From assembly GCF_024228315.1 (NCBI RefSeq), contig NZ_CP100454.1:1240001-1304000 (forward strand): a DNA stretch of 64,000 nucleotides, in the 5' to 3' direction. The translations under genes were made by a program, and so were the position numbers. The DNA comes from Halomarina pelagica (GTDB taxonomy: Archaea > Halobacteriota > Halobacteria > Halobacteriales > Haloarculaceae). The notes under the pieces are model-generated. The model was not told where the DNA came from. It searched no databases and worked only from the letters and a program-made list of their open reading frames with translations. Numbering within the stretch: position 1 is the stretch's first letter; every line of letters starts with the position of its first letter. Shown here piece by piece: positions 33,036 to 36,433 of the stretch.

Positions 33036-33395
33036 TCAGGCTCGGCGGCTCCCCACGGCCGCCCACACCGCCAGCGCGCCGAGCAGCAGCGCCGGGACGA
33101 GCGGTATCGTGAGGTACGCGTCCCGGAACGAGAGACCGAGCGAGGAGATCAGCGGCCCCGAGTAGGGTATGTAGAGCACCAGCGCCGGCGCGACGACGAA
33201 GGCGACGAGTATCATCCCGACGAGGATCCAGCCGCGCGCGCCGAACTCGGCCTCGTCGGGGTCGGGCGCGGCGGGGTCGCTCACGTACGCGCGGGTGGTG
33301 CGGGCGCTCGTCGTCCGGCCCCCGGGATCGTCGAGGCCGTCGGAATCGCTCGGCGACGGACGGCCGTCGGCGTAGCCCTCCCGCCCGTCAGCCAT
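33036..33395 (-). CDS. two-helix membrane protein
   Basis: 119 residues: a long disordered acidic N-terminus (to about residue 50), then two membrane helices (ARGWILVGMILVAFVVAPAL and an Ala/Leu-rich one) and a short basic end. Its start overlaps the 3' end of the oxidoreductase gene by 8 bases, so the two are probably co-transcribed. No function can be assigned. Confidence 0.68.
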   Translation of the reverse strand: MADGREGYADGRPSPSDSDGLDDPGGRTTSARTTRAYVSDPAAPDPDEAEFGARGWILVGMILVAFVVAPALVLYIPYSGPLISSLGLSFRDAYLTIPLVPALLLGALAVWAAVGSRRA

Positions 33396-34434
33396 CGTAT
33401 TCGCTGTCGGGCACGACGACGACCTTCCCGAAGCCCTCGCGCTCCTCGAGCATCGAGTGGGCGCGACGGATCTCGCTCATCGGGAGGACCTCGCGGACGT
33501 GCACCTCGAACGTCCCGTCCCACACGAGCGGGAGCACGTCGTCGATCTCGCCGGGCGTCGCCATCGTCGAGCCGAGGATCTGCTGCTGGTTCCAGAAGAC
33601 GCGATTGAGGTTCGTCTCCGCGACCGGGCCGGTGGTCGCCCCGCAGGTGACGATGCGCCCGCCCTTCGCGAGGGACTTCTGGGAGTCCTCCCACGTCGCC
33701 GGACCGACGTGGTCGACGATCACGTCCACCCCGCGACCGCCGGTGAGGTCGCGTATCTCGTCGGCGAACGAGGTCTCCTCGTAGTCGATGAGGTGGTCCG
33801 CGCCGCACTCGCGGGCGTGGTCGAGTTTCTCCTCGCTGCTCGCCGTGGCGTAGACCTCCGCGCCGGCGTAGTCCGCGATCTGGACGGCGGCGTGGCCGAC
33901 GCCGCCGCTCGCGCCGAGAACGAGCACCTTCTCGCCGGGCTGGACGTCCGCCCGCGTGATCAGCATCCGCCAGGCCGTCTGGAAGACGAGCGAGGCGGAG
34001 GCGGCGGTGTGCCAGTCCACGCCCTCGGGGACGGGGACGAGGTTCTCCTCCGGCACCGCCGCCCGCTCCGCGTGGACGCCGCGGACGTGCTCGCCCATGA
34101 TGTGGTAATTGACGCACATCGACTCCTCGCCGTCGCGGCAGAACTCGCACTTCCCGCAGTAGCGCCCCGCGGCGACCGCGACGCGGTCGCCCTCCTCGAA
34201 CCGCGTCACGTCCTCGCCGACCGCGCTCACGACGCCCGCCGCGTCGCTGCCGGGGATGTGGGGCATCTCCAGGTCGATGCCGGGGAGGCCGCGGCGCGTC
34301 CAGACGTCGAGGTGGTTGAGCGCGCCGGCCTTCACGTCCACGAGGACCTCGTCCGATCCGACGGTCGGGTCGTCGAACTCGTCGTAGTCGAGAACGCTCA
34401 CGTCGCCGTGTTCCGAGAACTGGACCGCGTACAT
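33388..34434 (-). CDS. zinc-dependent alcohol dehydrogenase/quinone oxidoreductase
   Basis: 348 residues from the ATG at 34434, where the conserved MYAVQFSEHG N-terminus begins. Structural zinc Cys cluster C93, C96, C99, C107 in CGKCEFCRDGEESMC and the NADPH motif VLGASGGVGHAAVQIA near residue 170 identify the medium-chain dehydrogenase family. A catalytic-site His is in GALNHLDVW. It reduces or oxidises an alcohol, aldehyde or enone. The substrate is not deducible. Confidence 0.87.
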   Translation of the reverse strand: MYAVQFSEHGDVSVLDYDEFDDPTVGSDEVLVDVKAGALNHLDVWTRRGLPGIDLEMPHIPGSDAAGVVSAVGEDVTRFEEGDRVAVAAGRYCGKCEFCRDGEESMCVNYHIMGEHVRGVHAERAAVPEENLVPVPEGVDWHTAASASLVFQTAWRMLITRADVQPGEKVLVLGASGGVGHAAVQIADYAGAEVYATASSEEKLDHARECGADHLIDYEETSFADEIRDLTGGRGVDVIVDHVGPATWEDSQKSLAKGGRIVTCGATTGPVAETNLNRVFWNQQQILGSTMATPGEIDDVLPLVWDGTFEVHVREVLPMSEIRRAHSMLEEREGFGKVVVVPDSEYDG

Positions 34435-34533
34435 GCTCGGGGAGTCGGACGGGCGGGGCAAAACCCTGCCGGTGTCACCGCGTGACACGGCCACGCCCGA
34501 CGGTTAAGGTGGAGGCCGTCGAACCGCTCGCAC

Positions 34534-35190
34534 ATGAGCGAGGAACATCACGACCACCACGAACACGGCGACCGCCACGGCCACCACGACTACGACGAGC
34601 ATCACGAAGACGACGACCACCACGACCACGACGGCCACCACGACCACGGCGAGGCGGGCACGCACGACCACCACCACTACGACCTGGAGACGGTCGGCGC
34701 GGCGGTGATCACCGTCTCCTCGACGCGGACGGTCGACGACGACCCGGCGGGCGACGCCATCGAGGAACTGCTCGCCGACGCGGGCCACGAAGTCGTCGCG
34801 CGGGAGGTGATCCCGGACGACTTCGAGGCCGTGCGCGAGACGGTCGAGCGGGCGGTCGCGAACGACGCGGTGGACGCGGTCGTCACCACCGGCGGGACGG
34901 GGATCACCCGCGACGACGTGACCGTCGAGGCGTGCGCCGTACTCTTCGACAAGGAACTCCCCGGGTTCGGCGAGCTGTTCCGACAGCTCTCGCGGGACGA
35001 GGTCGGCACGCGCGTCGTGGGGACCCGCGCCGTCGCGGGCGTGGTCACGGTCAACCCCACCGAGGGCAACCCGGTCCACGGCGTCCCGGTGTTCTGCCTC
35101 CCGGGCAGCGAGAACGCGGCCCGGCTCGGAACGCGCGAGATCGTCGTCCCGGAGGCCCCGCACCTCGCCGGACTCGCCCGCCGGTCGTGA
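34534..35190 (+). CDS. moaB: MoaB/MogA family protein with His-rich N-terminal extension
   Basis: 218 residues. Residues 1-48 contain 20 His among Asp, Glu and Gly, a metal-binding tail not part of the standard fold. From about residue 54 comes the molybdopterin adenylyltransferase fold: GAAVITVSSTR, DAVVTTGGTGITRDDVTVEA and CLPGSENAARLG. MoaB/MogA adenylate molybdopterin before molybdenum insertion. The His tail could deliver or buffer a metal such as Ni, Co or Zn. The 3' TGA overlaps the next GTG. Confidence 0.85.
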   Translation: MSEEHHDHHEHGDRHGHHDYDEHHEDDDHHDHDGHHDHGEAGTHDHHHYDLETVGAAVITVSSTRTVDDDPAGDAIEELLADAGHEVVAREVIPDDFEAVRETVERAVANDAVDAVVTTGGTGITRDDVTVEACAVLFDKELPGFGELFRQLSRDEVGTRVVGTRAVAGVVTVNPTEGNPVHGVPVFCLPGSENAARLGTREIVVPEAPHLAGLARRS

Positions 35191-36115: not shown

Positions 36116-36433
36116 TCAGGACGGGAGCGGACAGAGGCTCGCCGTCAGCACCGCCACCTCGTCGGCGTCGTTGCGCGCGCCGTGCGTGACGCCGCGCTCG
36201 TGGAGCACGACGCCGGGGGCCTCGACGACCTCCTCGGTGCCGTCCTGGATCACCGTCACGGTCCCCTCGAGGACGTGAAAGACGTTCGTCGCGTCGTCGT
36301 GCTCGTGGGGCGTCAGCTCCGCCCCCGGCCCGAGCGCGAAGTACTTCACCAGCACGTCGTCGGTGACGACGAGTTCGCCGGATTCGAGGTCGCCCTCGGC
36401 GGGCGTCGGAACGTCGTACAGATCGAGCGCCAT
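36116..36433 (-). CDS. cupin-domain protein
   Basis: 105 residues, a single cupin barrel. Metal-binding His/Glu lie in ELTPHEHDDATNVFHVLEG and the second motif in GVVLHERGVTHGARN. Small cupins may be dioxygenases, isomerases or ligand sensors. No partner gene points to a substrate. The start at 36433 fits a leaderless transcript because the TATA box lies 22-30 bases upstream. Confidence 0.82.
   Translation of the reverse strand: MALDLYDVPTPAEGDLESGELVVTDDVLVKYFALGPGAELTPHEHDDATNVFHVLEGTVTVIQDGTEEVVEAPGVVLHERGVTHGARNDADEVAVLTASLCPLPS

Follow-up and report, generated by a model that had tools for sequence, protein, structure and literature searches.

Why does a MoaB-type enzyme of a haloarchaeon carry a long N-terminal extension made up largely of histidine and aspartate? 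The gene lies in a stretch of 64,000 nucleotides of Halomarina pelagica (contig NZ_CP100454.1, positions 1,240,001 to 1,304,000), here called the window, and the translation of 34534-35187 begins with MSEEHHDHHEHGDRHGHHDYDEHHEDDDHHDHDGHHDHGEAGTHDHHHY ahead of the MoaB domain. An earlier note on this DNA had described the N-terminus as extremely His-rich, and translation bears this out: 20 His fall within residues 1-48, which is also the count for the 49 residues before an anchor residue, Asp50. ATG 34534 is the sole ATG, GTG or TTG between the upstream in-frame stop and the MoaB domain, so the tail is independent of the choice of start codon and a start-codon artefact is ruled out.

The description of the protein as MoaB-type holds in a broad sense. 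Its PF00994 match lies well above the family cut-off (Table 1), but its score against TIGR02667, the proteobacterial MoaB equivalog, is 149.1 bits, under the cut-off of 222.4 bits, and the protein is not filed there; the MoaB/MogA assignment is thus to be read in the broad sense only. All 16 conserved core positions that we checked are intact, including Asp95, whose counterpart in Pyrococcus furiosus (Pfu) MoaB, Asp56, is described in excerpts of PMC11656743 and PMC3896444 as coordinating Mg/ATP. An AlphaFold2 model built on a 45-row alignment gives pLDDT values of 49-69 for the blocks over residues 1-50 and of 82-98 for the core blocks, and the best PDB matches of the predicted model in Foldseek are the MoaB structures 1y5e, 1mkz and 4lhb. 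Judged from its sequence, the protein is probably an ordinary, active MPT adenylyltransferase of the MoaB/MogA fold.

It is also the only enzyme of its type that we saw in the genome, whose assembly is 99.7% complete with 4.6% contamination. Five PF00994 matches were found there, namely the MoaB ORF, two that we take to be CinA-like and two adjacent ones that we take to be MoeA, both labels resting on partial matches and characteristic sequence features; sorted in this way, they leave the MoaB ORF as the sole candidate MPT adenylyltransferase seen. The two MoeA-type genes adjoin each other at C1:1174000-1182000 (L187; L numbers denote loci and G numbers genomes), and the C-terminal part of the second presumably resembles a substrate-binding domain. 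The core of the window protein has an insertion of about 10 residues in a loop (residues 173-182, about 35050-35079), which is shared by Halomarina and a few others and is gapped in about 76 of the 82 group-A rows, defined below, and in all B and C rows of the alignment.

Table 1. Features of the tailed moaB locus and of related fusions. Positions refer to the window, except in the last row, where the locus is named.
Feature	Position	Strand	Remark
Zinc-binding-type dehydrogenase gene, divergent	33388..34434	-	Recurrent neighbour of group A and C moaB
Divergent intergenic region, 99 bp	34435..34533		
MoaB/MogA-type ORF, 218 aa	34534..35190	+	Only MoaB/MogA-type gene found in the genome
His/Asp-rich N-terminal tail, residues 1-49, predicted disordered	34534..34680	+	
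Junction HDHHHYD, residues 44-50, directly ahead of the first beta strand	34663..34683	+	Group-A consensus HDHH[HA]HD
PF00994 MoCF_biosynth domain, residues 57-209	34702..35160	+	107.1 bits against a cut-off of 26.6
Asp95 codon	34816..34818	+	Equivalent to Pfu MoaB Asp56 (Mg/ATP-coordinating), via alignment to an E. coli MoaB Glu
GGTG motif, residues 120-123	34891..34902	+	
RmlD-like SDR ORF, 280 aa	35187..36029	+	GTGA overlap with the moaB stop at 35187-35190; Halomarina only
Cupin_2 protein gene	36116..36433	-	Relatives near moaB in group A
Cupin_2-MoaB fusions	L117 1114-1965; L138 1501-2319	+; -	Pfam scan; a third, L147, by eye

The spread of the tail was followed in the class Halobacteria. 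A search of 391 genomes gave a match in 390, at a threshold (E <= 0.001) that also admits CinA- or MoeA-like matches. We analysed 140 MoaB-like loci, which represent 109 genomes and 86 genera and were drawn from the best 30 loci of this search, which are biased to near relatives, and from the strongest 110 matches (E down to 2.2e-16, weaker ones left out) in a panel of 80 genomes with about one genome per genus. On a FastTree tree, which leaves 59 of its 137 inner branches open and carries a long-branch warning for L144 with L148, three groups were drawn by hand: group B (33 loci, 99% support), group C (25 loci, 96% support) and group A, which comprises the other 82 loci and is the remainder of the tree rather than a clade. 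Tail histidines were counted from the nearest upstream ATG or GTG, a count that may understate some tails (L116, L138, L147).

How many haloarchaeal MoaB proteins carry the tail, as the earlier note had asked, depends on the group. At least five tail His are present in 74/82 group-A genes, with a median of 12 His in a 43-residue tail, and in 0/33 genes of group B and 0/25 of group C. The best 30 loci of the 391-genome search all have at least five, and the panel alone gives 44/52 for group A. All eight exceptions in group A (L053, L082, L093, L109, L111, L116, L138, L147) come from the panel, and several of them are short yet His-bearing. Group-A genes occur in 59 of the genera, and in 51 of these each one analysed has at least five tail His. 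Outside the class, 21 MoaB loci were taken, among the matches listed, from further families in the phylum. Counted by eye, they have at most six His after the nearest start (the maximum being in L167), and in 20 of them one or more His lie no further than six residues from where the domain begins, so that the tail looks like an elaboration beside an old conserved His. The objection that homologues lack the tail, which the note had itself raised, is thus true of groups B and C and of 20 of the 21 outside loci, but fails in group A and meets an exception in L167. Two simpler accounts were rejected on the same counts: the tail is not unique to one species, being widespread in group A, and it is not common to all archaeal MoaB proteins. 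A whole-protein search for related loci returned one distant clostridial locus.

Active sites were compared across the same groups. The 16 conserved core residues are all intact in 81/82 group-A, 33/33 group-B and 0/25 group-C proteins, and the equivalent of Asp95 is present in the same proportions; most members of group C keep 6 to 13 of the 16. The single degenerate gene of group A, L116, has lost Asp95 and has no tail His. Such degenerate copies stay acidic, in group C (0.6% His) as in L116. Among the 109 genomes, 73 have group A only, 21 have B and C, six B only, five A and B, three A and C, and one all three, and every genome with group C also had an intact copy. In G179, the genome carrying L116, no further full MoaB match turned up, and G180, G346 and G354 gave none at all. 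Since group B is intact at 16/16 residues in 33/33 loci that have no tail, adenylylation as such does not depend on a tail, and a strict requirement for it was rejected; the intact L082, apparently a sole copy with two tail His, also counts against its necessity. Loss of Asp95 maps to two changes on the tree, which give one or two independent pairs of tail and Asp loss. With so few events, the joint loss is an association without statistical weight, and we dropped any statistical claim for it.

A dehydrogenase gene like that upstream of the window moaB lies within the 1.5-kb flanks of 38/82 group-A, 20/25 group-C and 0/33 group-B loci, in all but one case on the opposite strand. Because it stands beside both A and C, group C looks like the positional relative of group A with a lost active site. 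This paralogue beside the dehydrogenase gene is a recurrent pseudoenzyme in family f3, which we take to be Natrialbaceae, and in two f1 genomes (degenerate copies L114, L121, L122, L125-L127, L129-L131, L133-L137, L139-L142, L145 and L146). Mycobacterial MoaB2, to which excerpts of PMC11656743 give a role in transcription, offers a comparison for such a protein.

Tail-less group B has a different neighbour. Of the 33 group-B loci, 18 have a COG0523-type GTPase gene upstream of moaB and in the same orientation within the 1.5-kb flank, against none of the 107 others (0/82 A, 0/25 C). For 17 of the 18 the distance from stop to start is -4 to 172 nt, five of the genes overlapping moaB by 4 nt (L101, L092, L084, L087, L123), and in L119 it is about 1 kb. 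In a wider view, by eye and among the matches listed, at least 22/33 group-B loci have COG0523 within about 3 kb and up to 11/33 do not, and no such gene was noticed near group-A moaB outside the flanks; judged by their coordinates, the COG0523 genes often form a tandem pair. Three representative GTPases score 158-169 bits for PF02492 and 67-82 bits for PF07683, and in a test for CxCC the motif reads CICC in 17 of the 18 ORFs, the exception being the partial match in L119. Proteins of this family aid metallocentre assembly, with Zn, Co and Fe as the examples given in excerpts of PMC7689651. At least seven His within a stretch of 40 residues (up to 17) were counted in 15 of the 18 ORFs, six in two, and two in the partial L119. 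COG0523 proteins often bear His-rich stretches anyway. Relatives are present in 54/80 panel genomes (E <= 1e-20), many of them unlinked to moaB, and in the H. pelagica genome itself there are three match pieces, at two places that both lie away from moaB. The likeness to His-rich metal chaperones that the earlier note had drawn stands as an analogy, given a tail that is widespread and a tail-less group that is often found beside a COG0523 GTPase.

To our knowledge, how cells keep Cu, Zn, Ni and Co off the MPT dithiolene before insertion of Mo or W is poorly understood. It is at MoeA that Mo and W enter the cofactor, in the form of molybdate or tungstate, and His-rich peptides prefer cations of the first row. 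On this ground the suggestion that the metal bound by the tail is the one inserted into the cofactor finds no support, and binding of molybdate or tungstate by the tail is unlikely, both being oxyanions. Starting from what can be read in the sequences, namely a tail with a conserved junction, its distribution, its near-complete absence from catalytically degenerate copies and the linkage of COG0523, we tentatively propose that the tail is a disordered metal-binding module acting in cis at MPT adenylylation, most likely by buffering competing cations. We infer that the His/Asp-rich tail would bind first-row cations (Zn, Ni, Co or Cu) and would thereby hold soft divalent or cuprous ions off the exposed dithiolene of MPT and MPT-AMP; in a variant of this buffering, it might park one ion reversibly on the dithiolene until MoeA inserts Mo or W. 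Where a genome has a tail-less group B, the neighbouring COG0523 GTPase may provide metal handling in trans.

That metal handling at MPT adenylylation takes two routes, in cis through the group-A tail or in trans through COG0523 in the group-B operon, is a more doubtful extension of this proposal. If it were true, control of competing cations would be a dedicated step in the Mo/W cofactor pathway, and the dead group-C copy would have become a tail-less pseudoenzyme after an intact second copy took over. Nature offers three states for comparison, a tailed and active-looking enzyme, a tail-less and active-looking one beside COG0523 and a tail-less dead paralogue, and 6/109 genomes encode both intact types (five with A and B, one with all three groups), which makes the matter testable inside one cell. 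There is also a practical warning for expression work in haloarchaea, where a tailed MoaB may co-purify on nickel columns.

The main rival treats the tail as a low-complexity extension, neutral or of the solubility type, such as is typical of salt-adapted proteins, inflated by repeat slippage at CAC/GAC codons and with any metal binding incidental; we consider this somewhat unlikely. Group-A tails vary in sequence everywhere but where they meet the first strand, and their length runs from 6 to 123 aa among intact loci, as such an extension would have it. Their composition is kept (27.8% His over 3,659 residues of 81 tails), which speaks for the metal-binding proposal. The DNA of the window tail shows a weak periodicity of 9/18/27 bp (69-74% matches), L009 has a repeated His/Asp unit, and repeat slippage may, to judge from these repeats, contribute to tail length; group B, moreover, does without a tail. 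Acidity, however, does not bring histidine with it: D+E make up about 32% of both group-A and group-C tails, yet the low His content of group C, counted over 813 residues, shows that His is no mere companion of acidic residues. The junction also speaks against a neutral extension. Over 81 group-A loci, His stands at position -4 in 76, at -3 in 80 and at -1 in 66, where the window protein carries Tyr, and Asp stands at 0 in 76, so that the first two His are near-invariant. The consistency of the tail across 51/59 genera points the same way.

The tail might instead be a general store of Zn, Ni or Co on a hexameric scaffold, with no part in cofactor synthesis, although we regard this as unlikely. 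Pfu MoaB is reported as a hexamer in excerpts of PMC3896444, and six copies of the window tail would by analogy put 120 His on one particle; storage and delivery of metal have been proposed for the His-rich region of CbiX-L (excerpts of PMC7689651). On the other hand, the tail His are gone where catalytic residues are lost, which suggests a link to the work of the enzyme rather than to the scaffold, even if only one or two events are involved.

A third possibility, which we judge improbable, is that the tail delivers Cu to MPT-AMP as a protecting ligand that MoeA then swaps for Mo. The structure of Cnx1G with MPT reportedly contains Cu, which suggests Cu as such a ligand, and His-rich peptides do bind Cu. 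The corresponding entries, 1uuy and 1uux, are titled 'links molybdenum and copper metabolism', a title that also stands in the reference list of PMC6954367, as seen in excerpt. Against this, we found no Cu-specific feature, and the COG0523 family is described for Zn, Co and Fe, not Cu, in the excerpts of PMC7689651.

Further neighbours and fusions bear on the context of the gene. The GTGA coupling to an RmlD-like gene, which the earlier note had called unusual, is present in 5/5 Halomarina loci and in 0/135 others (1.5-kb flanks), and as a general feature of moaB it was rejected. The downstream ORF scores 72.1 bits against the TIGR01214 equivalog, below the cut-off of 224.05, and is RmlD-like SDR only. 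A cupin gene lies near moaB in 12/82 group-A loci by clustering, or in eight by direct BLAST on longer ORFs, and cupin-linker-MoaB fusions occur in three genomes of families f5 and f11 (L117, L138, L147), with a linker that is clearly His-rich in L117 (6 His) and modestly so in the other two. In genome G002, L109 (1033-2190, minus strand) encodes a MoaB-MoaC fusion with a His/Asp-containing linker, which connects group A with Moco synthesis. A conserved start is shared by some proteins of groups A and C, MVDFQSRDTRR or near it, ahead of the acidic or His region (L017, L020, L030, L040, L045, L047, L050, L054, L057, L060, L062, L075, L077, L082, L116, L129, L131, L144, L148), and may be a short binding motif.

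It is very improbable that the tail is a remnant linker from an ancestral fusion of cupin and MoaB, or that it serves as a docking peptide for MoeA, MoaC or the cupin: the cupin fusions and nearby cupin genes, the MoaB-MoaC fusion and the conserved start would fit it, but conservation is limited to the last few tail residues, and the 21 loci outside the class have neither a His-rich tail nor a cupin fusion in up to 60 residues upstream of the domain, which leaves an ancestral fusion unsupported there.

Within the H. pelagica genome, a search with a His-rich probe found only the MoaB tail. An HxH pattern, which misses the MoaB tail itself and serves as a lead only (19 hits in a backward-read control against 28), pointed to eight other His-rich places. 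Four are on metal proteins, in keeping with the metal-binding proposal, namely LarC, a Ni/Co-efflux-like permease (44 bits, under the family cut-off of 195 bits), a multicopper-oxidase-type ORF and an HMA P-type ATPase, and the remainder are an AAA ATPase and three unclear places. LarC, the nickel pincer cofactor protein (L180 2580-4016, plus strand; C1 near 3417831), has 19 His in 40 residues.

Metal proteins with His-rich tails are already known, as is the MoaB family. In the open-licence literature searched we found no account of a histidine-rich MoaB or MPT adenylyltransferase, of the combination of such a tail with MoaB, its spread and the COG0523 alternative, or of COG0523 in haloarchaea. 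The window protein has the fold, the GGTG motif and the catalytic Asp in common with the MoaB/MogA/Cnx1G MPT adenylyltransferases, and with Pfu MoaB (4lhb) it shares 41-42% identity over 169-172 columns (E 1e-14 to 1e-13); we know of no His-rich tail on these enzymes. In the crystal of Pfu MoaB, the first 9 to 11 residues are disordered (PMC3896444, excerpts). Mycobacterial MoaB2 and E. coli MoaB are paralogues whose role in Moco synthesis is doubtful or absent, and E. coli MoaB has lost the same Asp as group C (PMC11656743, excerpts), although the loss of active-site residues goes much further in most group-C proteins.

Among haloarchaeal proteins, Haloferax PitA, LarC and Cdc48d likewise have His-rich segments. 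In H. volcanii, the His-rich linker of PitA served for its purification on Co2+, larC was removed so that LarC would no longer co-purify with His-tagged protein on Ni-NTA (PMC5746218, PMC12853182), and PitA and Cdc48d were replaced to cut contaminants (PMC5746218, PMC12853182, PMC11169840; all in excerpt). These differ from the tailed MoaB in that they are not molybdenum cofactor proteins, LarC being a nickel cofactor protein. The COG0523 (CobW/ZNG1-type) GTPases, usually with a His-rich stretch, adjoin the tail-less group-B moaB, but each is a separate G3E GTPase and is unlinked to tailed group-A moaB in the flanks analysed. The CbiX-L cobaltochelatase also bears a His-rich appendage on a cofactor-metalation enzyme, one that could be deleted with cobalt insertion unaffected (PMC7689651, excerpts), a result that speaks against the buffering proposal. 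It differs in that CbiX inserts Co itself, whereas MoaB inserts no metal, and in that the His-rich region of CbiX-L is C-terminal, with an Fe-S centre.
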